Position numbers and translations under genes: made by a program. The notes below the pieces were generated by a model. The model was given only the letters and a program-made list of their open reading frames with translations. It was not told the DNA's origin and ran no database searches. A stretch of DNA of 20,704 nt from a virus: the IMG/VR virus record IMGVR_UViG_3300009774_000303, positions 1 to 20,704 of that record; one strand, given 5' to 3'. Shown piece after piece: positions 1-20,266 of the stretch (within the stretch, counting starts at the first letter, position 1; every line of letters starts with the position of its first letter).

Positions 1-767
1 AATGCTTTTCTGAAATTAAGCCCTTCAGTATCGGCGTGGAATATATAAATAGAGGAGTCCTTTGTCATCACTGCTTCAGTATTTGAAAAGGCAGCCAGCA
101 GAAACTCGTAGAATGCTGAATCTCCCATGTTGTCGTTCTTGATTTTTCCAGCGGCGCCTTCATAGTTTACATTGTAAGGAGGATCGGTCACTACAAGATT
201 TGCCAGCTTCCCATCCATCAGAAGAGTGAATGTTTCAGCCTTGGTGGAGTCACCGCAGACAAGCCTGTGGGGTCCAAGTCTCCAGACATCGCCGAGTTTA
301 GTTGTGGCGGGTTTCTCCAGCTCCGCATCGACATCAAATTCGTCATCATGAATGCCGTCTTTCAGAGAATCTTTAAACAGCTCGTCCAGTTCAGATGGAT
401 CAAAGCCGGTGAGAGAAACATCAAAATCCGCACCCTGCAGATCCGATATGAGCAGTGCCAGTTTATCCTTATCCCAATCACCACTGATTTTATTGAGTGC
501 AATGTTCAGAGCCTTTTCTTTTTCTTCATCCAATTCAATGACTACACACTCAACTTCAGTCATCCCCAAATCCAGGAGAACTTTAAGTCGCTGGTGGCCT
601 CCAACAACCTTTCCTGTGGTTTTGTTCCAGATAACTGGTTCAACATAGCCGAACTGCTCAATGGATCTTTTCAGTTTGTCGTATTCAGGATCACCGGGTT
701 TCAAGTCCTTACGAGGATTATAATCAGCGGGGAGTAAAAGTTTAGTTTTCAGTTTTTCGATCTTCAA
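1..767 (-). CDS. ParB-domain DNA (adenine-N6) methyltransferase, 3' end beyond window
   Basis: This is a phage DNA methyltransferase with an N-terminal ParB/sulfiredoxin-like domain; 255 residues are visible before the gene runs off the left edge. Residues 12-20 read ADYNPRKDL-like and residues 56-60 are GGHQR, the core of the ParB-type fold. A linker follows, then VCGDST (170-175) and DPPY (195-198), the catalytic motif IV of N6-adenine or N4-cytosine methylases of the beta type. The start is a TTG at 767-765, preceded by an AAAGGCGG-like Shine-Dalgarno sequence, and the gene overlaps the end of metK by 26 bases. No ATG fits the full ParB domain. Such fusions commonly sit near the terminase genes of Firmicutes prophages and probably modify phage DNA. 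The target sequence cannot be read, and the C-terminal target-recognition part is outside the window. Confidence 0.9.
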   Translation of the reverse strand, partial: MKIEKLKTKLLLPADYNPRKDLKPGDPEYDKLKRSIEQFGYVEPVIWNKTTGKVVGGHQRLKVLLDLGMTEVECVVIELDEEKEKALNIALNKISGDWDKDKLALLISDLQGADFDVSLTGFDPSELDELFKDSLKDGIHDDEFDVDAELEKPATTKLGDVWRLGPHRLVCGDSTKAETFTLLMDGKLANLVVTDPPYNVNYEGAAGKIKNDNMGDSAFYEFLLAAFSNTEAVMTKDSSIYIFHADTEGLNFRKA

Positions 768-1923
768 ATTTTTCCGCCGCCTTTCTTAAGTTGAGATTGA
801 AATCCACGTTCTCCCAGGGAAAGAGACTCGAATTGAAATGGCCGTAGGTTGCTGTGTCAGAATAGATCGCATTTCTTAGATGAAGTTTTTCTATGATGGC
901 TGCCGGGCGTAAGTTGAAAACCTCTTTGACGATTTCAACCAGGGATTCATCACTGACAATGCCTGTGCCAAAGGATGTCACATTAACCGCTACCGGGTTT
1001 GCTTTACCTATTGCATAAGAAAGAGCGACCTCACATTTCTCCGCAAGCCCGCTCCAAACAATATTCTTTGCAATGTATCTGGACATATAGGCACCGCTTC
1101 GATCGACTTTTGTCGGATCCTTACCGCAGAGCGCACCGCCTCCATGGGAAGCCAGACCTCCGTAAGTATCCACCATGATCTTTCTGCCGGTAAGACCGGT
1201 GTCAGCAGCAGGCCCACCTTCGACGAATCTGCCTGAAGGGTTGATGAGGATTTCTGTTTTCTCATCTAAAGGAAAGTCCTCGAAACACTGCCAGAGCACA
1301 TTATTTAAGATATCTGACTTCAGCTGTTCCTGGGTTTTATCTTTATCATGCTGCACTGAGACCACAATAGTTTTAACCCGGATGGGTTTATCCCCGTCAT
1401 ACTCAAGAGTGACCTGTGCTTTCCCATCTGGCAGGATGCCCTTGATGATTTTACCTTTTCGGTATTCATCGATTCGCTTCACAATCCTGTGTGAGAGTAG
1501 TAGTGGTAGCGGAAGCAGTTCACGGGTTTCATTTGTAGCATATCCATATACGGTTCCCTGATCACCAGCACCGGTGGATCCGTATGGGTCGATGATTCCA
1601 TTTCTTGCTTCTAGGGCAGTATCTACACCAGCGGAAATATCAGCGCTCTGAAGATGTACAAACACAAATACAGTGAATTTCAAAGGACTGTATCCCACCT
1701 CACGAAGTACTTTTCTGACGATAAGACGGATGTTTATTTTTTCGCTGCAGGTGATTTCGCCCGCCACGATAATCTTACCTTTTGTTGCCATGACCTCGCA
1801 GGCAACGCGTGAAGCTTTGTCTTTACGAAGGCATGCATCCAGAACACTATCTGCAATCAGATCACATAGCTTATCAGGATGTCCCTCGCAGACACTTTCT
1901 GCGGTTCTGTAGTTTTTACTCAT
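742..1923 (-). CDS. metK: S-adenosylmethionine synthetase (methionine adenosyltransferase), phage-borne
   Basis: This 393-residue protein makes S-adenosylmethionine from ATP and methionine. It carries the family signatures in order: EGHPDK, GEITCS, QSADI, GAGDQG, a LPDGKAQVT segment, NPSGRF, DTGLTGRK with MVDTYGG, GGGALCGKDPTKVDRS and the C-terminal GHFNSSLFPWE. The ATP-, methionine- and metal-binding residues known from E. coli MetK (His and Asp of GHPDK, the Asp of GAGDQG, the Lys of GRK and GKD) are all present, so it looks active. The segment before QSADI is shorter than in the E. coli enzyme. The ATG at 1923 has GGAGA eight bases upstream. It lies 21 bases after the small terminase gene and overlaps the methyltransferase gene, so it reads as part of the phage late operon rather than a host copy. 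A likely role is supplying cofactor for DNA methylation. Confidence 0.95.
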   Translation of the reverse strand: MSKNYRTAESVCEGHPDKLCDLIADSVLDACLRKDKASRVACEVMATKGKIIVAGEITCSEKINIRLIVRKVLREVGYSPLKFTVFVFVHLQSADISAGVDTALEARNGIIDPYGSTGAGDQGTVYGYATNETRELLPLPLLLSHRIVKRIDEYRKGKIIKGILPDGKAQVTLEYDGDKPIRVKTIVVSVQHDKDKTQEQLKSDILNNVLWQCFEDFPLDEKTEILINPSGRFVEGGPAADTGLTGRKIMVDTYGGLASHGGGALCGKDPTKVDRSGAYMSRYIAKNIVWSGLAEKCEVALSYAIGKANPVAVNVTSFGTGIVSDESLVEIVKEVFNLRPAAIIEKLHLRNAIYSDTATYGHFNSSLFPWENVDFNLNLRKAAEKFEDRKTEN

Positions 1924-8933: not shown

Positions 8934-9716
8934 TCACACCTCCAACTCAATCTGCGGATAGATACCGTCCACTTTCAGCTGCTCATAGATGAAGAGTCTG
9001 CCTTTTTGCGTCCATTTGGTATGAACTTTCGTGTGTTGGATACCTTTACTATCCGCATAAATATGTGTGTTGGTTTTGGTATATCCGTTGGGAGCATGCT
9101 TTTGATACAACAGCCAAATGTCACCCTGCTTGAACTGGATTCCGTTCTCATGAAGATATTCATTCATACGGATCCCGCTCCAACCGTAGTCTTTGGCAAT
9201 AACGGAGATGTTAACGGCATCCTTGCAATTAAGAACCACATCGTAATAATTTGCTTTGGGTTTCATCTCAGCAATTTGCTGTTGTCCCACTGCAACTGCT
9301 GCCATAAGTCTCTTATTCTTCTCACGTTCTTCCTTAAGTGCAGTAAAAGCAGCAATGGCAAGGTCAGGATTGGCTATGAGTTCATCGGTTGCGTACATAC
9401 CATGCTTTCGAATGTCTGGTAGCACTTCGCTGGTAACCCATCGCTTAAACTTCTTAGCTTTTGGCATTTTGCTTGAGAGGATAAGACTATAAAGACCTGA
9501 TTCGTTGAAAGCAGTCATTGTTTGATTTCTACCGATGGCGTCACGAATCGTTACGTCACTCTTGTCTTCTTCGTCTACATGGTCAATTAGGGCTTTTCGA
9601 GTGTTGGTGTAACTGAGAATATCTGCTACATCCTTTCCAACAAAGTATGGCTGACCATCAATTGTTGTGGTGCGTACAGACCCAAATTCTGCATTGTTGT
9701 AAACTTGTAATTCCAT
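8934..9716 (-). CDS. Phage antirepressor, BRO-N plus KilAC domains
   Basis: This 260-residue antirepressor has an N-terminal BRO-N domain (about 1-110: FGSVRTTTIDGQPYFVGKDV, then ALIDHVDEEDK and FNESGLYSLILSSKMPKAK, RWVTSEVLPDIRKHG) and a C-terminal KilAC domain (about 155-255: VNISVIAKDYGWSG, MNEYLHENGIQFKQGDIWLL, TKWTQKGRLFIYE). Proteins of this kind promote lytic development by inactivating the phage repressor. The ATG at 9716 has AAGGAGGT at ideal spacing; a TTG 23 codons upstream overlapping the previous stop would extend the frame but adds no conserved sequence. The ribosome-binding site is part of a multi-state RNA fold (see 9723-9785), so expression is probably coupled to the upstream gene. 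Confidence 0.92.
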   Translation of the reverse strand: MELQVYNNAEFGSVRTTTIDGQPYFVGKDVADILSYTNTRKALIDHVDEEDKSDVTIRDAIGRNQTMTAFNESGLYSLILSSKMPKAKKFKRWVTSEVLPDIRKHGMYATDELIANPDLAIAAFTALKEEREKNKRLMAAVAVGQQQIAEMKPKANYYDVVLNCKDAVNISVIAKDYGWSGIRMNEYLHENGIQFKQGDIWLLYQKHAPNGYTKTNTHIYADSKGIQHTKVHTKWTQKGRLFIYEQLKVDGIYPQIELEV

Positions 9717-9722
9717 AAGAAT

Positions 9723-9785
9723 TACCTCCTTGAATTTTTTTTGGAGGTATTGACCTCCTAAGTGGTAGCCTCGGGAGGAGGTCAA
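9723..9785 (-). promoter_or_regulatory. Four-segment RNA switch candidate sequestering the antirepressor SD
   Basis: On the minus-strand transcript four segments follow one another. Segment 1, TTGACCTCCT (9785-9776), contains the stop codon of the sigma-like gene. Segment 2 is AGGAGGTCAA (9759-9750), segment 3 is TACCTCC (9749-9743), and segment 4 is GGAGGTA (9729-9723), which is the antirepressor Shine-Dalgarno box. Segments 1 and 2 pair over 10 bp without mismatch. Segments 2 and 3 pair as GGAGGT-CAAT-ACCTCC. Segments 3 and 4 pair over 7 bp and hide the ribosome site. The three hairpins exclude each other. A ribosome finishing the upstream gene would cover segment 1, let 2 pair with 3, and free the site. 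Confidence 0.6.
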
Positions 9786-10309
9786 ATCTGACGATTCTGA
9801 TATTCTTCTTGTAATTTTTTTGTAGCTCTTTTCAATTTTTGTGTAATATTATTTTCTTCAGCACCGATGGAGTTGGCATATTCACGGATTGACATGCCAT
9901 CGATTCGAACTGCAATGAAGGCATCTGCCCATTCTGGTTTTTTGGAAAGTGCGCTTCGTATCCATTGGCAAACATCTTGGTGTATATTCTGGCTATCACA
10001 ACTAATTTCATCTTTTCTAAACACTCTGTCGTCAGCCACTTCTTTCATAAGAGGTTCTGAAGTATCAATTCCCTCTCCTTCTTCATTAGGCTTTGCTTTG
10101 GAATAGCCCCAGTGCCTGTCAAACTTGTGCCAATTGTTGTACTCTTGTCTGTTGAATTTCTCATTAAATGCATTTTGGATTAACTGTTCTTTATGTGATT
10201 TAGGAAATACATCACCTTCTATAGACAAACTAATCCACATTTCCTCAACTTCCTTTTCACTGAGTTCAATTGTTTGAAATTTGTTTTCATACCTTACTGA
10301 TAATCTCAT
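9782..10309 (-). CDS. Sigma-70-like factor of the mobile-element type
   Basis: This 175-residue protein has a C-terminal sigma region-4-like helix-turn-helix: FIAVRIDGMSIREYANSIGA followed by ENNITQKLKRATKKLQEEY (about 131-170). The N-terminal half, with YENKFQTIELSEKEVEEMW, FNRQEYNNWHKFDRH and SEPLMKEVADDRVFRKDE, resembles sigma-like proteins I know from integrative elements of gut Clostridia rather than from classical phages. It is probably an alternative sigma factor or activator for element genes. The ATG at 10309 has AGGAG seven bases upstream, inside a hairpin (see 10316-10344). Its stop codon lies inside the next gene's regulatory structure. Family membership is from pattern recognition, so the exact target promoters are unknown. 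Confidence 0.75.
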   Translation of the reverse strand: MRLSVRYENKFQTIELSEKEVEEMWISLSIEGDVFPKSHKEQLIQNAFNEKFNRQEYNNWHKFDRHWGYSKAKPNEEGEGIDTSEPLMKEVADDRVFRKDEISCDSQNIHQDVCQWIRSALSKKPEWADAFIAVRIDGMSIREYANSIGAEENNITQKLKRATKKLQEEYQNRQI

Positions 10310-10680: not shown

Positions 10681-12267
10681 TTATTCTGTAATTTCACTAC
10701 CTAATTCAGATATTCCAAACTTCTCTAAGACACCATTAAAATCTTTAATTGAGAGCCCTGGCATAATATCCAATATCCGAATATAAATTTTATCTGGTTC
10801 GTCATAATAATTTAATTTATTCTTTGATTTATCAAATAATTTTTGCGTTACTCTAGAGCACAATCGCATTCCTACACAAATTGCCATAAGAACGTTAGTG
10901 GTCATGTTGTTATAATTATTTTTCTTAATTTTCCCATGGTAGTTTTTATGAAGTCCAGTCTCTTCTTTGAATTTCTCAGGATAGTTCCATTTTCTTTTAT
11001 CCATCAAGAACCATAGACAATCACATAGGGTCTTATCTGGATTGCCTATCATCGTCATAAGTTCTCTTTCCTCTTGTTCATCATAAAAAGTTAACTGTTT
11101 ATAAAACGCTTGATAAGCTTCCTCCGATTCTACCTTTATAGCGGACTGAAATTCCGGATGGAATGCAAGAATTCTCCTATCAACTCCCTCCATCCTTGTA
11201 AGCATTGAATAACCAAGGAAGTCTTTATATGTGTTAGTATAATTAACGTACTTCAATTCGCGGATATTAATAATGCATTTTGAGAGATTCTCTTTTGCCT
11301 TTGGTGTTAAATATAGATTACCATCTTTTTGTTTTACATACTGACTATTCGCGAGTACAAAGTACCCATCAGCGAATACAAAATGTCTCCCTTTTATCCA
11401 TTTCTGAAGAACTGAATCCGAATCAATAATATTTATTGCTTCAACAGGAGTCAATTTTACAAAGTCATTTTTGTTGTTAATTTCTTCATAAACAATTTCG
11501 TAATCTTCAAACTCTGAAATTGTTTCTTCTAAACCAACTTCGATCAATCGATATTTAATAGATGATCTTGATGTTATAAAAAACTCACTTAAATCATTAA
11601 TTAAAGTGTCACAGGATAAAATTGAATTTTCTTCTGGTATGCTATATTGCTCAATAAGTTCTATTGCTTTATTTTTAAAGCTGTTTTTGGGCATTAATAC
11701 TCTTGGTGCCAATCTATGTGCCTGCCACTCTAGCCATCTTACTTCATTTTCCTTTGTTTTTTTCCCTTCTGGAGGTGTATAGAAGGTTTCAGACTGGCGG
11801 CATAAAATAGGGTATAGTTTTTCAGGAGCGTCCCTATTTTTTCTCTCTAAGATTTCAAAATATCTCTTATCCTTTTCCCAATGAAGAGCCTCATGAATTA
11901 GTGTATTTCTTTTGAAACCTTCACCATAGGCGGACACGGATAAGGGATCGACCAAAACCGTTTTAGCCTTAAACTCGGTTGATCTATACTGTCCTGTTTC
12001 CAGATCATAAACTTCTACACTTGTATCCAGCATTAAGCAGCATCCGAAAATATCTAAATCTCTGGATAAAGATACTTCTTGTACAGTTAGTCCCATTACC
12101 TTGAGAATATCATCAACAGGAAGAGGCATTGGGTCAACCAATGCCTGTTTACAATATTTTGTTAGAAATTTAGTTGCATAATCGTCAAGTCGATTTTTAC
12201 CAAGAATCAATGCTCCTGATTTTTTATTTATATCAAAAATATCACTTGATGTTATTACCCTCTTCAT
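10681..12267 (-). CDS. ImmA/IrrE-type zinc metallopeptidase with unknown C-terminal domain
   Basis: This 528-residue protein begins with an ImmA/IrrE-like domain: a YATKFLTKYCKQ...PLPVDDILKVMGL helix region (30-60), then TLIHEALHW with the zinc motif HEALH at 125-129, and WLEWQAHRLAPRVLMP with Glu180, the usual third-ligand region. Such peptidases cleave XRE-family repressors or other regulators. The remaining roughly 330 residues are unrecognised. Its ATG overlaps the end of the YgjP-type gene by 26 bases, so it is translationally coupled to the restriction operon and is its last gene. It could cleave a regulator or subunit of this system; the target cannot be read from the sequence. Confidence 0.82.
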   Translation of the reverse strand: MKRVITSSDIFDINKKSGALILGKNRLDDYATKFLTKYCKQALVDPMPLPVDDILKVMGLTVQEVSLSRDLDIFGCCLMLDTSVEVYDLETGQYRSTEFKAKTVLVDPLSVSAYGEGFKRNTLIHEALHWEKDKRYFEILERKNRDAPEKLYPILCRQSETFYTPPEGKKTKENEVRWLEWQAHRLAPRVLMPKNSFKNKAIELIEQYSIPEENSILSCDTLINDLSEFFITSRSSIKYRLIEVGLEETISEFEDYEIVYEEINNKNDFVKLTPVEAINIIDSDSVLQKWIKGRHFVFADGYFVLANSQYVKQKDGNLYLTPKAKENLSKCIINIRELKYVNYTNTYKDFLGYSMLTRMEGVDRRILAFHPEFQSAIKVESEEAYQAFYKQLTFYDEQEERELMTMIGNPDKTLCDCLWFLMDKRKWNYPEKFKEETGLHKNYHGKIKKNNYNNMTTNVLMAICVGMRLCSRVTQKLFDKSKNKLNYYDEPDKIYIRILDIMPGLSIKDFNGVLEKFGISELGSEITE

Positions 12268-12997
12268 TATCTACCTGTTCTCCTTTTTCGATATAGTCTA
12301 AAGGCATCTCTGATAATAGTTTTCTTGCCTCTTTCCAGGTAGGGTAGAACTCCTCAACAAGAGAATAGAATCTATTAGTGTGATTTTTTTCTACTAAGTG
12401 CACAATCTCATGAATAACTAGATACTCAAGACATTCTATTGGCTTTTTAGCGAGCTGCAGGTTAATCCATATTCTTTTCTTATCAATATTACAGGTACCC
12501 CACTTAGTCCTCATGTTCTTGATTTTATACTCATTAGCATAAACATTTGTTTTTGCCTCACACCTTGATACAACCCCATCCAATACTCGATTAAGCTCTT
12601 CTCTATACCATTCATTAAAAACTCTTTCCCTTGATTCTTTGCTTGATCTTTCGGGAGCAGTTAGTATAATCTTATTTGGCAGTTTAGAAATTTCGTATTT
12701 ATTCCCCTCATAAACCACCTGTAAACGATATGGCTTTCCCCATAAATAGTGTGACTCACCAGAAACATACTCTCGTTCTGATTGTCGTGCTTGTGATAAC
12801 ATTCTATCTCTTACCTTTGTTATCTCAGGCATTTTCTTTAAAACAAAAAGTCTTATTTCTACATCAGGATAATCACTAGGAGCGCTGACGGTTACATTGC
12901 CTTCTGGAGGATTAACTCTTACATAAAGATTTTTAAGATTTTTCTTTTTGATAATTTCAATTGGCATTCCACCAATTATTTCTTCACTACTCATCAT
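12242..12997 (-). CDS. YgjP/DUF45-type zinc metallopeptidase of Type I R-M operon
   Basis: This 251-residue protein matches the YgjP (DUF45, M48-like) family. The C-terminal half has MRTKWGTCN, INLQLAKKPIECLEYLVIHE and then HEIVH at 196-200 with a further His at 206, the HExxH-x5-H zinc signature, followed by FYSLVEEFYPTWKEARKLL. The N-terminal part has IEIIKKKNLKNLYVRVNPPEG and the VTVSAPSDYP segment usual for the family. The ATG at 12997 (or 12994) overlaps the end of hsdR; AGGT lies six bases upstream. YgjP-like genes are frequent partners of hsdR. Here it is followed by a second, different zinc peptidase. It is probably cytoplasmic, with no signal peptide. Confidence 0.88.
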   Translation of the reverse strand: MMSSEEIIGGMPIEIIKKKNLKNLYVRVNPPEGNVTVSAPSDYPDVEIRLFVLKKMPEITKVRDRMLSQARQSEREYVSGESHYLWGKPYRLQVVYEGNKYEISKLPNKIILTAPERSSKESRERVFNEWYREELNRVLDGVVSRCEAKTNVYANEYKIKNMRTKWGTCNIDKKRIWINLQLAKKPIECLEYLVIHEIVHLVEKNHTNRFYSLVEEFYPTWKEARKLLSEMPLDYIEKGEQVDNEEGNNIK

Positions 12998-15900
12998 ATT
13001 CAACCTGCCTTTCAGTCAATTCAAAGACAGCGTTGGTTTTTTCAGTGGCTTCGTCTACGTCATAACCATCTATCAATAAATTTTGATAGATAGCAAGCCT
13101 TATATTTTGTTGTTTCTGGAAGTTTCTCTTCCAATCAGGACGCAATGCATTACGTATAGCGCTATCGATACTTACTGCTAGTTTTTCAGCTTTATCAAAA
13201 TAATCAAATAAAGCTCTTCTGGCTTCGCTATTTTTTACAGTATCCGGATAATCAGAGTTTTGCTCAGGATGCAAAATCGCTTGTGCAAGTTCCACAACTT
13301 GGCGCAGATATTCTTCATAACTCATTGCTTCAATTCGTCTCTGATCAATAATTATCTGAAGCATTTCTGACAGCTTGCCATAGTAAACTTTGTTAGCGGA
13401 CATCTTTTTGACGATTTCGTGTTGTAAGTTGTTTTCAATTATCTCCGCCTTAGCATTTTCACTTCCCGGAAGACCTTTCACTATTGCCTCAATTGGAGTT
13501 GTAGTCGTGCTATCTAATAACAACTCAACTAATGACATATTCCCAAGCTCACTTACAACCGTAGAATCCTCCGCACGAATGTAAGTATCAAGAATATAAC
13601 GCATATCAGCCTCATAAGGCTTTAGGTCAATGTAATCACAGCTTGCGAGTTTAATCATTTCTTTAATTTTATTGTAGCTGGAAATTTCATTTCTCAGTTT
13701 GTTCACTTGTATCTCTGAGTAGCCATAGTCACTCACAAGTTTATCGCTGCAATTTGCAAATGAACGAGTTAAAGAAGCGGTAAGAGTATATAAAATATCC
13801 CTGAGACCGGTATTTTCATCATCTTCACTATTCTCACCACAAAAGTAATCAATATAATCTGTGTCTTCTTTTGGTGAGTTTACATTTTCCAGCAACTCAG
13901 TAAGTGATGCAATCGCTCCCGCCATTTCAGATTTAGCCTCATCATAACGACCTTTGATAAGCCCTTCAACATCTTCCTTATCAAAGTCATCGAAAGCTTC
14001 AGCGGTATAGTCGGAGACCGCTACTTGAACATTACGGAATAAATCCATGTAGTCAACAATATAACCATAGTCTTTATCCTCACCGTCTGGTCTATTAACG
14101 CGACATATAGCTTGGAACAAATCATGATCACGCATAGATTTATCGATATATAAATAAGTTGCACTTGGTGCATCAAACCCAGTCAATAGTTTATCCACCA
14201 CAATAAGCAGTTTCATTTTAGCAGGTTCTTTCTTAAACTGTTCTTTTGCTTCTTTTTCAAATTCAGACAGTTTTTTACCTCTGAGCATCCGTTCATAAAT
14301 TGACTTCTTATATTCTTCTTCGCCTTCTTGGCTCAAGTCGCTCGTGGCTGTTCTGACGCTTGCAGTAGAGGGCTCATACGATGTGACAACAGCACATCTA
14401 CTAAAACCATTGCTCGTAAAGATATCCCAATATCTACAAGCTTCATAAATACTGTTAGCAACAAGCATTGCTGTGCCACGTTCATTTTTAAGGCGAGGTT
14501 TTAAGTTCATGTCAAAAATAATGTCGCCTGCAATTTTCTCAAGTCTTTGTCTTGAACTATATAATTTATTGATCGAAGTCCAACTTTGTTTTAACTGTGT
14601 CTTTGCCCTATCTGTAAGACCTAAAGTTTTATTATCAAACCACAAATCAACCTTGTCTTTATTCGATAAATCTTGGTCAACATCTCTAGCCTCATAGCGC
14701 AAATCAAGGACAACACCATCCGCAACACCCTCATCGAACTTATAAGTGTGAATGTATGGTCCAAAGGTTTCAAGACTGGTCGATTTATCTTTTTTAAGTA
14801 GTGGAGTTCCGGTAAAACCAATTAGCAAAGCTTCAGACATCAGTACTTTAACAGCTTCATGCAATTTACCTGAGTTTGTACGATGACATTCATCAATAAA
14901 AGCAATTATTTTTCCTTTTGCTCTAAAGTTAGCAGGCAGATCTTTTAGCAATTCTTTACGATACTGATCCACATCAGCTTGTTTACCTGCGTTATGTCCA
15001 TACTTATGAATCAAAGAACATATGATTGAATCATCATTTTTATTTAAGACATCTCTTAAATCAGCACTACTCTTTGTTCTTCTTACTTTCTCATTGACAT
15101 CAATAAACAAACTTTCTATTTGGTCATCAAGTTCGTCACGATCTGTAATGATTACCACTCGGCTATCTGCTACATTTTCTATAACCCATTTAGTAAGCCA
15201 AACCATAATCAGAGATTTACCAGATCCTTGCGTATTCCAGATAATCCCGCCTTCATTTGAATTAATCCTTTTTCTAGCGGCAACATTAGCGAAATATTGA
15301 TTATGTCTTGCAACTTTTTTTAAACCTGCATCGAAGATAATAAAGTTGTGAATCAACGAAAGGAATCTCTCTTTTTGGCAAAGGGAAATTACACCATCTC
15401 TTAACTTATTCTTTTCTTTTGATTGAATGCTCTTAACAGTTGCAGAAAGTTCATCCGTAGCTTTACTATCTTCTTTCCAATTCAGAAAAAATTTCTCAGG
15501 TGTTTCGATTGTTCCATACTTAAGCCCCTCTGCCTCATTACCTGCAAAAAGAAATTGTACAGTACTAAAGTAGTTATGAATATACTCCTTCTTTTGGTTC
15601 GTAAGATTTTGACGAATACCTTCGCCGATGCTTACACATGAGCGTTTTAACTCAAATATACCAAGAGCGATGCCATTTACAAACAACACCACATCAGGAC
15701 GTTTTTTTTCTATTTGATTGTAGCAAAGTACACTTACTTCTTCAGCAACATAAAAGTCGTTATTCTCTACATTATCCCAGTCGATATAGTGCACAGTTTG
15801 CCGATTTCTATTTTCATCTTTAACACCTTGTTTACCATAACGAAGAAGAGAATAAATCTCTTTATTGATTTGGTAGAGACTATCTGCTTGATTACTCGCC

Positions 15901-16112
15901 TTTGAAATAAGCTCAGTTACTGCTTTAGTAATTTGATCTTTCGTATATCCACGCTTTTCTAGATTCTTCTTTAGCAAATCCTCTTTAACAGGCGTATTGT
16001 CTTGATCCTCAAGGTTGCCAAGATACGTGTATCCTAAACCACCATCTTTCTCTTCTTCTACTAACCAGTGGAGAACTTTATTTTGTAGTTTTCTTTCTAA
16101 ATCAACAGACAT
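12987..16112 (-). CDS. hsdR: Type I restriction enzyme R subunit (translocase-nuclease)
   Basis: This 1041-residue HsdR has all expected parts. The nuclease domain has RPD (138-140) and ELK (154-156), the PD-(D/E)XK site. The motor has Walker A TQGSGKS (294-300), DECH (407-410), the GFTGTP motif and AICRVNRP motif VI. The C-terminal helical region that docks on the methylase follows. With HsdM and HsdS it cuts unmethylated DNA far from the recognition site, using ATP and S-adenosylmethionine. The ATG at 16112 was chosen because AGGGGGG lies upstream and it follows the hsdS stop by 13 bases; a longer frame up to 16145 would overlap hsdS and adds no conserved sequence. The frame is intact. Confidence 0.95.
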   Translation of the reverse strand: MSVDLERKLQNKVLHWLVEEEKDGGLGYTYLGNLEDQDNTPVKEDLLKKNLEKRGYTKDQITKAVTELISKASNQADSLYQINKEIYSLLRYGKQGVKDENRNRQTVHYIDWDNVENNDFYVAEEVSVLCYNQIEKKRPDVVLFVNGIALGIFELKRSCVSIGEGIRQNLTNQKKEYIHNYFSTVQFLFAGNEAEGLKYGTIETPEKFFLNWKEDSKATDELSATVKSIQSKEKNKLRDGVISLCQKERFLSLIHNFIIFDAGLKKVARHNQYFANVAARKRINSNEGGIIWNTQGSGKSLIMVWLTKWVIENVADSRVVIITDRDELDDQIESLFIDVNEKVRRTKSSADLRDVLNKNDDSIICSLIHKYGHNAGKQADVDQYRKELLKDLPANFRAKGKIIAFIDECHRTNSGKLHEAVKVLMSEALLIGFTGTPLLKKDKSTSLETFGPYIHTYKFDEGVADGVVLDLRYEARDVDQDLSNKDKVDLWFDNKTLGLTDRAKTQLKQSWTSINKLYSSRQRLEKIAGDIIFDMNLKPRLKNERGTAMLVANSIYEACRYWDIFTSNGFSRCAVVTSYEPSTASVRTATSDLSQEGEEEYKKSIYERMLRGKKLSEFEKEAKEQFKKEPAKMKLLIVVDKLLTGFDAPSATYLYIDKSMRDHDLFQAICRVNRPDGEDKDYGYIVDYMDLFRNVQVAVSDYTAEAFDDFDKEDVEGLIKGRYDEAKSEMAGAIASLTELLENVNSPKEDTDYIDYFCGENSEDDENTGLRDILYTLTASLTRSFANCSDKLVSDYGYSEIQVNKLRNEISSYNKIKEMIKLASCDYIDLKPYEADMRYILDTYIRAEDSTVVSELGNMSLVELLLDSTTTTPIEAIVKGLPGSENAKAEIIENNLQHEIVKKMSANKVYYGKLSEMLQIIIDQRRIEAMSYEEYLRQVVELAQAILHPEQNSDYPDTVKNSEARRALFDYFDKAEKLAVSIDSAIRNALRPDWKRNFQKQQNIRLAIYQNLLIDGYDVDEATEKTNAVFELTERQVEYDE

Positions 16113-16125
16113 AAGCTTAACCCCC

Positions 16126-17325
16126 CTATACTTTAAGACGCACACGACCAGTTAAAAGATCATCCATTGCACCATCTCTAATTTGAACCATTTTTGTTTT
16201 TTCAATTTCGAGTAATTTAATATCTTCATCCATCTCATATAGAATTGATGAAATGGCTTGTTGTTCTTTGACATTAACAGGGATACATAATTCAGTTTCG
16301 CCTATTGATTTTTTAGAAATTGAAGAAACCTTAATACCTGTTACATAAGGCAATAGCTGATCATGGTAGCAATTTGAATTGATATAGTAGCCCAAGAAAC
16401 CAAATGCTGTTGGATAATTAGGTCTGCAAGCCATCGTATGCAGACCACTTACAATAGGCATATTTATATCGCCAATTTGCACTGCTTTCCCTACAACATC
16501 ATCTTCAGCTGTATCAGCGATAATAATATCGTTCTTTTTAAGGAAATGTCTTTTATTTAAATTAGAAGTATCAATAATCCTTGGAATATGATCTTTTTCA
16601 GTTAAAACGCATCCATATTTTGTTAAAATGTCACCGTAATGAATGTTCCCTACTGCCCCCCTTTCAGAGAGCCGTTCTCGTGAATATGTGTTTGTAGGTA
16701 GTAGTGTGAAATACTGATTAAATGGTATTTTCTCCCACTGTCCTTTAAATCCACCAAGCCTTGTTCTACCACTTAGAAGATCCTCTAAAGCACCGATACG
16801 GATTGCAATTTTCTTATCGATTAATTTAGTTAGATTATCAATGTGTTCATCAAAATCTGATAATACCGTGGCTATAGCTTGTTGTTCCTTGGAATGAATC
16901 AATGGGACTTTATATTCTTCGGTTACAGGTAGTGAAATCTGAGGAAAAGAACTTCTTCCATCACCGGCATTTCTAAAATAATCAACATTATACTTAAGAT
17001 AGTAAAAAAGAAATTTTACAGCATATAAATCAGCTGACGTATATCCCCACATCTCATTTTTAAAAGTACAAGGTTCATCGCAATATATAAAATCTATCAC
17101 TCCTCTAGATTGAACTATTACCACTGGAACATTTACAATATTAGCATCAGGCAAATCAGATAGATTCGCTTTGATTTCTGTTGCTCCTCCAGCAAAAACT
17201 CTTATAGATCCAGTAGAAGATTTAATTCTGTGCATTTTTTCAGCTGTTATAGGAGTCCCCTTTACGCGCCTATAAATTTCCTTTATTTCGCTATACTCGA
17301 TTATATCTCCAGGATAAGCTACCAT
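16126..17325 (-). CDS. hsdS: Type I restriction specificity subunit
   Basis: This 399-residue HsdS sets the recognition sequence. It has two target-recognition domains, each followed by a conserved helix. The first helix region reads QQAIATVLSDFDEHIDNLTK...ALEDLLSGRTRL and the second QQAISSILYEMDEDIKLLEIE...AMDDLLTGRVRL; their similarity shows the internal repeat. The first recognition domain includes VPVVIVQSRGVIDFIYCDEP and the second YGDILTKYGCVLTEKDHIPR. The ATG at 17325 overlaps the hsdM stop as ATGGTAG, giving coupled translation; an upstream start at 17373 would overlap hsdM further and looks unneeded. The bipartite DNA target cannot be derived from the sequence. Confidence 0.93.
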   Translation of the reverse strand: MVAYPGDIIEYSEIKEIYRRVKGTPITAEKMHRIKSSTGSIRVFAGGATEIKANLSDLPDANIVNVPVVIVQSRGVIDFIYCDEPCTFKNEMWGYTSADLYAVKFLFYYLKYNVDYFRNAGDGRSSFPQISLPVTEEYKVPLIHSKEQQAIATVLSDFDEHIDNLTKLIDKKIAIRIGALEDLLSGRTRLGGFKGQWEKIPFNQYFTLLPTNTYSRERLSERGAVGNIHYGDILTKYGCVLTEKDHIPRIIDTSNLNKRHFLKKNDIIIADTAEDDVVGKAVQIGDINMPIVSGLHTMACRPNYPTAFGFLGYYINSNCYHDQLLPYVTGIKVSSISKKSIGETELCIPVNVKEQQAISSILYEMDEDIKLLEIEKTKMVQIRDGAMDDLLTGRVRLKV

Positions 17326-19991
17326 TTGTACCCCATCCTTTCCAACGCAGACTTCACCTTTTCTTTTGAACAATCTGTTTTTTCTTCAATTTCACTTAAA
17401 GTATGCTCATATCGTTTTGCAATTAAAACCACTCTTGAAGCAAGGAAGTTAATTACTTGGTCTACTTCTTTCGTGACATCACTCTCCAGTCTTGCCATCC
17501 ACTTCTCATCAAATAATAAGTGTTTGATTTCATCAATTGTAAGCTCATCGTACTTAGCAAGCACCAAATCATCAAGAGCCTTTTCCGCTTCCTCTTTTTC
17601 TGTCATCTTAGTTTGATATGTGATTAAAGCATTATATTCATCTACATAAATAGCAGGCATTATTGCATTTAAGTTTGCCTCCTTTAATGCAGTTCTTAAT
17701 TTAGTTTTACCAAATGAACCATTCTTGTTTCTAAGCTCATAAGCGTTCAACTCACTATTGGATATTACGATTTTCTCCATATCAGTTGTATTACCCACAT
17801 CAAACAACTCGATTAGCATTGTAATGTCGCTTATTACTGGTGATGTCTTTTTACTTTCAAGTTCCTTAATCTGCTTTGTAAGATTTGTTTTAGGAATACC
17901 ATCACCTTTTTCATTCAAGGCATTTACAAGTAATCCTTCATCACCAGATTCTTCTTTCCGCATTTCATCAAGTTCAGATTCAAGCGAATCCGCTTTTTCA
18001 CTCAACTCATTAAGAGCCAATGATTCATCTTCAAAATACACACGCTCAATGATATTTCTCGGAATTAAAGCACCTTCAAACGACTTCATTTTTGATGTAT
18101 CATCAACCTTTATTTCTTCTCCACTTTCATCTTTTGCTTTTTTTTGAGCGTACACATATTCAATCTCGCGACCAGCTTCATATCCGCTAGCCTTTATTAT
18201 ATACACATCATCTTGCATTTTCTCATTCCAGTAATTAAGTAATGAGTCATATACATCATAGTTATCTAATAGCTGTGTTGTTTCAAAACTACTCAGCATC
18301 TCAAAGCCTATGTTACGAATTCGTTCTTTTGGATTAGTATTTACATTTAAATTTAGCAGAGAATTTTTTACTGAACTTCTCCAAGTTCCGAACAGCTCAC
18401 CACACTCGTTTTCTTTTTCATTTTTGATATTTTCATCCTCAGAAATAGCTGTTTCTATTTCGTCTGGTGACATAACAAGTTTAAAGACATTGTGCTCTTC
18501 ATTAATACAGGTAAATATCTCTTTTTTTAATTCCGGCGATATTCTCCACAGTTTTTCTATCGAATTTATGTCAACCCCTGGTACTCCTCCCTTTAGATGT
18601 GATGCAATATTTTGCGGTAATGAATCATCAATCTTTTGGATATAACGAGGCACATTTAAGTTTCCATCATTCTCTTCCATGATTTCTTTATAAGTAATAA
18701 AGCGGGAGTATCCTTTAATCTCTTCTTTATTGATAAAAGTTTGTACTACTTTCTCTATATCTTGTTCGCGAAGACGGTTCTTGTTTCCATCTTTCATAAA
18801 TCCTTTGCTTGCATCAATCATAAAGATACCTTCGCGTTCAGCAGCATTCTCTTTATCGATTAGAATAATACTAGCAGGGATTCCCGTTCCGAAAAATAAG
18901 TTTGCAGGCAACCCAACGATACCTTTAATATACCGCTTATCAAGAACTGCCTTTCTAATAGTTTCTTCGGAGTTAGGTCTAGATAGAACACCGTGAGGCA
19001 AAATAATACCTGCCTTGCCACTATGGCTCTCCAATGCTTTTAGGACATGTAAAAACCAGGCATAATCACCATTTTTCTCTGGTGGGATTCCATAGCCATC
19101 AAATCTTTTGAATTTATCCTCAGTTACCTTAATTCCATCAGTCCAATCCTTATCAGAAAATGGCGGATTCATTACTATAAAGTCAAATTTCTTAAGCTCA
19201 CCAAAATCATCCTTATACGCTGGACTTGCTAATGTATTGCCACTTTTGATTTCGCCTGTACCCTTATTATGTAGTATAAAGTTCATCTTTGCTAAACCCG
19301 CCGTATCAGGGTATTTTTCTTGGCCAAATATTGTGACGATAGAATCTCCATTTTCATCCGTAGGAGCTTCATCAGCTGCACGAATTAATAGTGATCCACT
19401 CCCCGCTGCAGGATCGTGAATCGTCCATTTCTTACCTGTCTCCTGCTTAATATCACCTATACCAATAAGTCTAGCGATAATACGTGATACCTCGCTAGGT
19501 GTGTAAAATTGTCCCTTACTCTTACCTGACTCCTGAGCAAACTTCATCATGAAGTATTCATAAGCGTCTCCAATGATGTCATCTCCACTGGCTCTATTAC
19601 TCTTAAAGTCAATCGCAGGATTTTGGAATATAGCAATAAGCCCAGAGACCTTATCCACTAGTTCCTTACCCGATCCTAGCTCATCAGGGTTATTAAAACT
19701 TACATCAGGCAAAGACCCTTGAAGACGGTTTTCTTCTAAGAATTTTTGGATGATTTTATCTACTCTTTCACCAACATCACTTTTGCCCTTTGCAGCAATC
19801 AAATCATCAAATGATGCACCCTCATTCACCTTAAATTCAGCGAATCGCTGACCCTTGTATCTATCAGATACGTATTTAAAAAATAAAAGAACAAGTACAT
19901 AATCTTTGTATCTTGACGGTTCAACTCCACCTCTTAATTTATTGCATGCATCCCATAGAAGGGAATACAATTCTGATTTTTTCACAGCCAT
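17319..19991 (-). CDS. hsdM: Type I modification methyltransferase subunit, long form
   Basis: This 890-residue HsdM starts with the family N-terminus (SELYSLLWDACNKLRGGVEPSRYKDYVLVLLFFKYVSDRY) cut here as two known helices. GQFYTPSEVSRIIARLI precedes motif I DPAAGSGSLL (193-202), and motif IV is NPPF (275-278), so it is an N6-adenine methylase using S-adenosylmethionine. GIPASIILIDKE and GIFMIDASKGF complete the catalytic domain to about residue 480. About 400 more residues follow, longer than the roughly 500-550 total of classical HsdM, and end in a possible winged-helix-like segment (LSEIEEKTDCSKEKVKSALE). The ATG at 19991 has AAAGAGGT upstream. hsdS starts inside its last codons. Confidence 0.95.
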   Translation of the reverse strand: MAVKKSELYSLLWDACNKLRGGVEPSRYKDYVLVLLFFKYVSDRYKGQRFAEFKVNEGASFDDLIAAKGKSDVGERVDKIIQKFLEENRLQGSLPDVSFNNPDELGSGKELVDKVSGLIAIFQNPAIDFKSNRASGDDIIGDAYEYFMMKFAQESGKSKGQFYTPSEVSRIIARLIGIGDIKQETGKKWTIHDPAAGSGSLLIRAADEAPTDENGDSIVTIFGQEKYPDTAGLAKMNFILHNKGTGEIKSGNTLASPAYKDDFGELKKFDFIVMNPPFSDKDWTDGIKVTEDKFKRFDGYGIPPEKNGDYAWFLHVLKALESHSGKAGIILPHGVLSRPNSEETIRKAVLDKRYIKGIVGLPANLFFGTGIPASIILIDKENAAEREGIFMIDASKGFMKDGNKNRLREQDIEKVVQTFINKEEIKGYSRFITYKEIMEENDGNLNVPRYIQKIDDSLPQNIASHLKGGVPGVDINSIEKLWRISPELKKEIFTCINEEHNVFKLVMSPDEIETAISEDENIKNEKENECGELFGTWRSSVKNSLLNLNVNTNPKERIRNIGFEMLSSFETTQLLDNYDVYDSLLNYWNEKMQDDVYIIKASGYEAGREIEYVYAQKKAKDESGEEIKVDDTSKMKSFEGALIPRNIIERVYFEDESLALNELSEKADSLESELDEMRKEESGDEGLLVNALNEKGDGIPKTNLTKQIKELESKKTSPVISDITMLIELFDVGNTTDMEKIVISNSELNAYELRNKNGSFGKTKLRTALKEANLNAIMPAIYVDEYNALITYQTKMTEKEEAEKALDDLVLAKYDELTIDEIKHLLFDEKWMARLESDVTKEVDQVINFLASRVVLIAKRYEHTLSEIEEKTDCSKEKVKSALERMGYKW

Positions 19992-20017
19992 TCATTTAAC
20001 CTCTTTCATTAATTTTT

Positions 20018-20230
20018 TTAATATTCTGTAATATCAATTCCTGCTTTCAATAACCTTTCATATCTCTCGTGAGAAATAAGAACAGCCACAGGCTTTCCGT
20101 TTTTCAACACAAAAGCAGTTTTATCCTCATCAGATAATCCAGTGATTAGCTTTGAAGATTGCCCTTTTAAAAAATCAGACATATTATAGAATTCCATTGG
20201 CTGTTTCTGAGCTTTATCCTCATTTACCAT
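20018..20230 (-). CDS. Phd/YefM-like antitoxin-type protein, no toxin partner seen
   Basis: This 70-residue protein resembles Phd/YefM antitoxins. The segment MSDFLKGQSSKLI is followed by AFVLKNGKPVAVLISHERYERLL, where the NGKP-x-AVLIS-x-xxYE pattern is the family signature. The start is ATG at 20230 with GGGTG five bases upstream; a GTG at 20242 is possible. No toxin gene lies beside it; hsdM begins 26 bases after its stop. Phd-type proteins bind DNA, so it may act as an autoregulator of the restriction operon. It is the first gene after the operon promoter. That regulatory role is inferred from position. Confidence 0.75.
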   Translation of the reverse strand: MVNEDKAQKQPMEFYNMSDFLKGQSSKLITGLSDEDKTAFVLKNGKPVAVLISHERYERLLKAGIDITEY

Positions 20231-20266
20231 ATCTACACCCACTTTTTAATTTTTCTTTTCCTATCA

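Follow-up and report, generated by a model that had tools for sequence, protein, structure and literature searches.

The element that precedes the antirepressor gene of this virus is probably a promoter specific to the phage and embedded in an RNA switch, from which it would follow that the antirepressor is translated only from messages started locally. In the scheme that we propose, a conserved nonamer (as -35 box) and the hexamer GGCTAC (as -10 box) would be recognized jointly by RNA polymerase and the sigma-region-4-like protein that the phage encodes just upstream, and the same promoter would be used at two further sites of the genome. RNA that reads through from upstream would contain the first of four pairing segments, and in such RNA hairpin 1:2 would form and hairpin 3:4 would hide the Shine-Dalgarno (SD) sequence, leaving the antirepressor untranslated. 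Since the putative promoter lies between the hairpin arms, RNA begun at it would lack segment 1; segment 2 would then capture segment 3, and the SD would be free. If the origin of the message decides its translation in this way, the antirepressor would stay silent until the regulator accumulates: leaky early transcription would supply the regulator without the antirepressor, which would be made only after the regulator had acted on its own promoter class.

Pairing segments in front of the antirepressor gene

The window, i.e. the whole stretch of 20,704 nucleotides that was analyzed, contains the following features of the locus:

8934-9716, minus strand: antirepressor (Bro-N and KilAC), the controlled gene; ATG at 9716-9714; Pfam Bro-N 9e-29, ANT 3e-36; PHROG anti-repressor 8e-92
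9723-9729, minus strand: segment 4, GGAGGTA, the SD of the antirepressor
9743-9749, minus strand: segment 3, TACCTCC, the anti-SD, with segment 2 or segment 4 as its partner
9750-9759, minus strand: segment 2, AGGAGGTCAA, the 3' arm of hairpin 1:2 and proposed anti-anti-SD
9758-9759, minus strand: predicted transcription start, 7 nt past the hexamer, placed by spacing; a 5' end here frees the SD best
9765-9770, minus strand: GGCTAC, proposed -10 box, always 14 nt past the nonamer
9776-9785, minus strand: segment 1, TTGACCTCCT, the 5' arm of hairpin 1:2, inside the proposed -35/-10 spacer
9782-10309, minus strand: sigma-region-4-like regulator gene (175 aa, phrog_11138), whose 3' end overlaps the nonamer
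9785-9793, minus strand: nonamer CGTCAGATT, proposed -35 box, conserved at sites A, B and C (see below)

As an earlier note on this DNA had described for the minus strand, the four segments can pair over 10 bp (1:2), 6 bp (2:3) and 7 bp (3:4); segment 1 holds the stop codon of the upstream gene (TGA, 9784-9782, minus strand), and segment 4 is the antirepressor SD, whose AGGAGG is kept in the relatives. Contrary to that note, the three hairpins are not all mutually exclusive: the computed minimum free energy (MFE) fold of the segment RNA contains 1:2 and 3:4 together, and only 2:3 is an alternative to both. This fold has an energy of -27.8 kcal/mol (z -3.2), a stability equalled in none of 200 dinucleotide shuffles, and the full chain of 10, 6 and 7 bp appeared in none of 20,000 base shuffles; a second copy of the chain was sought elsewhere in the window and none was found. 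Computational folding, one of the checks suggested earlier, thus yields alternative hairpins that hide or free the SD.

Another suggested check, compensatory change in relatives, also came out in favor of the pairing: the arms are conserved, and both 1:2 and 2:3 covary. Relatives were first collected through proteins similar to those of the upstream gene and the antirepressor, and later by DNA pattern. In hairpin 1:2, true partners pair better than arms exchanged between elements (38 elements, z -5.4, 0 of 5000 permutations), and the same is true of 2:3 at site A (30 elements, z -7.7, 0 of 5000) and at site B (15 elements, z -3.4, 2 of 5000); the permutation test ignores the relatedness of the elements, and these figures should therefore not be taken as strict probabilities. 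The SD hardly varies across the relatives, so covariation says nothing about helix 3:4, strong as that helix is. The caution, raised with the original observation, that all segments are variants of the SD and anti-SD sequences is fair, yet the covariation of 1:2 and 2:3 exceeds that effect. These comparisons support a switch that would operate by alternative pairings.

A larger element at three sites

Segments 1 and 2 lie inside a wider element, which consists of the nonamer CGTCAGATT, 14 nt, GGCTAC and then TAG, and which takes the form CGTCAGATT-N14-GGCTACYNNNTAG across the relatives, with a purine-rich SD-like stretch behind it. Most of the complete relatives carry three copies, all in one orientation:

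Site A: 3' of the sigma-region-4-like gene, the locus under study
Site B: 55-82 nt 3' of the endolysin gene
Site C: 5-19 nt 3' of the DNA polymerase gene

Site A alone falls within the window, which is a 20.7-kb virus record. It lies directly 3' of the regulator gene wherever both are found, and is followed by genes of varying kind (antirepressor, Rha-like or DUF7768). According to a weight-matrix scan, the complete phage Javan630 has exactly the three sites, with the rest not above background. Among 24 bacterial genomes searched with up to two mismatches, the matches are in prophage, usually three per contig and in one orientation; the single match outside prophage is weak (two mismatches, on another contig of genome G011), and the reversed control pattern gave no match in the same 24 genomes. 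A search of plasmids returned chance matches only. We found no description of the element in the literature on the nonamer, on DUF2800 RNA motifs and on read-through SD sequestration, and the sequence paper on prophage 1207.3 makes no mention of sigma or promoter.

Four matches from Ruminobacter and Succinivibrionaceae (L231, L255, L261 and L289), which were first read as a terminator form, were not counted because they may represent a coding repeat and have no recognizable regulator adjoining. In three of them (L231, L261 and L289) an arrangement CGTCAGATTTCACC-stem-GGCTACTTGTTAG-stem-U-run fits the motif, possibly within the coding repeat RTSDFTNPxGYLLGGL. Two further observations concern site B. 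The first gene after it in nearly all these phages encodes a small conserved protein, phrog_7234, KISVSKKPQTGG (L304 34122-34340), and one contig (L427, G025:C1:8700-9100) has a fourth site, CGTCCTTTT-N14-GGCTA, 81 nt upstream of site B, apparently a tandem promoter.

The regulator and the promoter-like signals

The regulator encoded next to site A matches Pfam Sigma70_r4_2 with an E value of 0.0019, under the cut-off, and the PHROG sigma factor profile with an E value of 3e-5, and its NCBIfam sigma matches are confined to the C-terminal ~90 aa. In the predicted structure this C-terminus appears to have the -35-binding fold of sigma region 4: ECF sigmas superpose on it through their region 4 (SigR at 1.8 A rmsd), and the comparison with SigE region 4 on -35 DNA gave a probability of 0.99. 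For the N-terminus, profile searches detected no sigma region 2 and the model had no significant match in the PDB. Because the regulator lacks a detectable sigma region 2, its role may be that of an activator and not of a sigma factor.

The surroundings of the gene contain two additional inverted repeats. A perfect 16-bp palindrome, CCGTCTTGCAAGACGG (10339-10324, minus strand), just 5' of the regulator SD, may serve as an operator or form a hairpin, and was not conserved in the nine genomes checked. A hairpin resembling an intrinsic terminator, GGACCCCGAAAGGGGTTC-TTTTTTT (10652-10635, minus strand), lies between a peptidase-like gene (10681-12267) and the regulator gene. Elsewhere in the window (742-1923 and 12242-20242), translations suggest an S-adenosylmethionine synthetase-like gene and, next to a metallopeptidase-like gene, putative genes for type I restriction-modification.

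Apart from its final one or two bases, the nonamer stays outside the conserved pairing. The 14 nt that separate it from GGCTAC are constant as far as the distant members, whereas the 1:2 stem shifts in register (position sums of 51, 53 or 54, derived by hand). In 13 complete phages, one nonamer type (CGTCAGATT-like, CGTCCGATT, CGTCCTTTT or TGTCCAAT) is present at all sites of a phage; the type differs between phages and changes in concert within one. A common nonamer core is shared by sites B and C in all 28 contigs that have both, and a search for site C with the nonamer left out of the query still recovers it. The nonamer mostly tracks the recognition helix of the regulator (ENNITQKL, ENNLSHKL, NNVSHRYR, KRxTVYKR or AISHRM), the exceptions being regulators L131 and L342/L343, which have other helices and still adjoin CGTCAGATT. 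The phage G026 (L425, L426) is a mosaic, whose site A and regulator belong to the TGTCCAATC type but whose sites B and C carry CGTCCTTTT; a second regulator was sought in it and none was found, leaving one regulator gene.

The element is most likely a promoter for the phage's own regulator, an identification that we infer, like the start site, from these signals and their spacing. With GGCTAC taken as positions -12 to -7, the start would fall at index 35 (index 0 being the first C of the nonamer), i.e. at 9758 in the window. Segment 1, between the nonamer and GGCTAC, would then be part of the promoter DNA itself.

An RNA operator, in which the nonamer and the loop GGCUACC would bind a phage RNA-binding protein or a small RNA and, riboswitch-like, shift the pairing at all three sites, would likewise accommodate a conserved single-stranded flank and loop, a variable output structure and the concerted change within each phage. 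Nonetheless, we consider it unlikely, as the spacing from nonamer to loop is fixed although the stem register slides, and as the candidate partner has the fold of sigma region 4, which binds -35 DNA. Moreover, an A-rich run stands immediately 5' of the nonamer and an intrinsic terminator precedes site B, both of which are expected of promoters, and searches of the window and related loci against Rfam, at gathering as well as permissive thresholds, gave no relevant match. Complementarity of GGCUACC to 16S rRNA was also considered, and dropped as plausibly due to chance.

Accessibility of the Shine-Dalgarno sequence

The promoter reading makes the position of the RNA 5' end decisive, and in equilibrium computations, on which all our folds are based, the hairpin of the long RNA hides the SD at all three sites. 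The computed probability that the SD is free is 9e-5 in long RNA versus 6e-2 in RNA starting at index 34 at site A, 7e-4 versus 0.36 at site B, and 3e-10 versus 0.17 at site C. When the 5' end is moved along the element, accessibility peaks at indices 29-35, and at site A it is about 300-fold lower by index 37. For the window itself, the computed values are 1.4e-7 for the full RNA, 0.0096 for a start at 9758 and 2.5e-6 for a start two bases later. The freed SD in the window still reaches only about 0.01, because a second hairpin forms with the start codon. Segment 2 doubles as the SD at site C, where the loss of segment 1 frees it directly; the hairpin of this site, with its U-run, resembles a terminator for read-through transcripts. 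The upstream frame extends beyond segment 1 in about nine relatives at site A (stop at indices 26-74), and therefore ribosomes would be expected to unfold the read-through RNA there.

We incline to the view that these messages would sense their own start site: the 5' bases (segment 2) would act as an anti-anti-SD, and the antirepressor would be made only from starts at its own promoter. Such a design would be shared by three operons throughout a large group of temperate phages with mainly Gram-positive hosts, and would co-evolve with the sigma-like regulator.

Translation coupling and recombination as alternative explanations

Attenuators of the ermC type have four segments that form alternative hairpins, and their SD is freed when segment 1 is unavailable. 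By this logic, which the earlier note had adopted, a ribosome that terminates at the UGA of segment 1 would open 1:2, hairpin 2:3 would form, and the antirepressor would be translated while the sigma-like gene is. The pairings that it requires are real, and the stop codon lies within segment 1 not only in the window but also in many CGTCAGATTTGA relatives. However, the stop at site A ranges between -7 and +74 as counted from the nonamer, and the element is kept at site B (stop 55-82 nt upstream) and site C (5-19 nt upstream) with no coding overlap, where a terminating ribosome would stop short of segment 1; a translated leader with a ribosome over segment 1 is thus not what the three sites have in common. 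In addition, the frame in which CGTCAGATT is translated differs from phage to phage (RQI, ASDF), and the nonamer, its fixed spacing and its concerted change are left without account. We therefore regard ermC-like coupling as improbable. Of the post-transcriptional switch suggested earlier, the alternative pairings are supported, as the arms covary, and ermC-like coupling as the shared mechanism is not, because the position of the upstream stop is not conserved. In the phage of the window, where the UGA is within segment 1, there is room for some coupling, which may operate at this locus.

It is very improbable that the element is merely a module-boundary linker, kept through its use in phage recombination, with the pairing as a by-product of SD-like repeats, since, for all that it lies at module borders, that the gene downstream of site A varies and that the mosaic G026 exists, 1:2 and 2:3 covary, the nonamer changes in concert at three sites, and no similarity between sites is evident outside the element.

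Relation to known systems

The promoter-and-switch reading likewise shares with ermC the four segments and a choice of hairpins that determines whether the SD is free. On the other hand, it involves no ribosome stalled by a drug or on a leader peptide, the position of the stop varies, and in the active RNA segment 1 is proposed to be missing, not occupied by a ribosome.

Phage sigma factors such as T4 gp55 and SPO1 gp28 and gp33/34 each serve their own class of promoters over several operons. The regulator proposed here would similarly command its own multi-operon promoter class; unlike them, it is recognizable in region 4 only, and its promoter would be fused to an RNA switch. The role of gp55 as a T4 regulator with promoters of its own is also covered in the literature on T4 (PMC3014915).

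The closest parallel appears to be the control of T4 gene e (lysozyme), soc, 49 and I-TevI, in which a hairpin in long RNAs begun upstream conceals the ribosome-binding site, and a late promoter over the 5' strand of the hairpin gives rise to shorter, hairpin-free RNAs that are translated (PMC3014915, PMC2988022). As in gene e and I-TevI, the long RNA is computed to hide the SD. In contrast to these genes, a relay is added at sites A and B, where the first bases of the transcript would be the anti-anti-SD, and one design recurs at three operons. Furthermore, the promoter motif and the regulator are unrelated to the T4 late promoters and gp55, the hosts are mainly Gram-positive and the phages are temperate. 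By analogy, the control described here would resemble that of gene e and I-TevI with a relay added, and not an ermC attenuator.

Implications

If the proposed mechanism is correct, it would provide a large group of temperate phages, which includes relatives with macrolide and tetracycline resistance genes, with a defined regulator and a regulon of three promoters. It would make clear how transcription can cross the antirepressor gene in a lysogen and yet yield no protein, and it would extend the principle known from T4 lysozyme to a relay RNA. The element would also offer a searchable motif that marks the starts of operons in many unannotated prophages.
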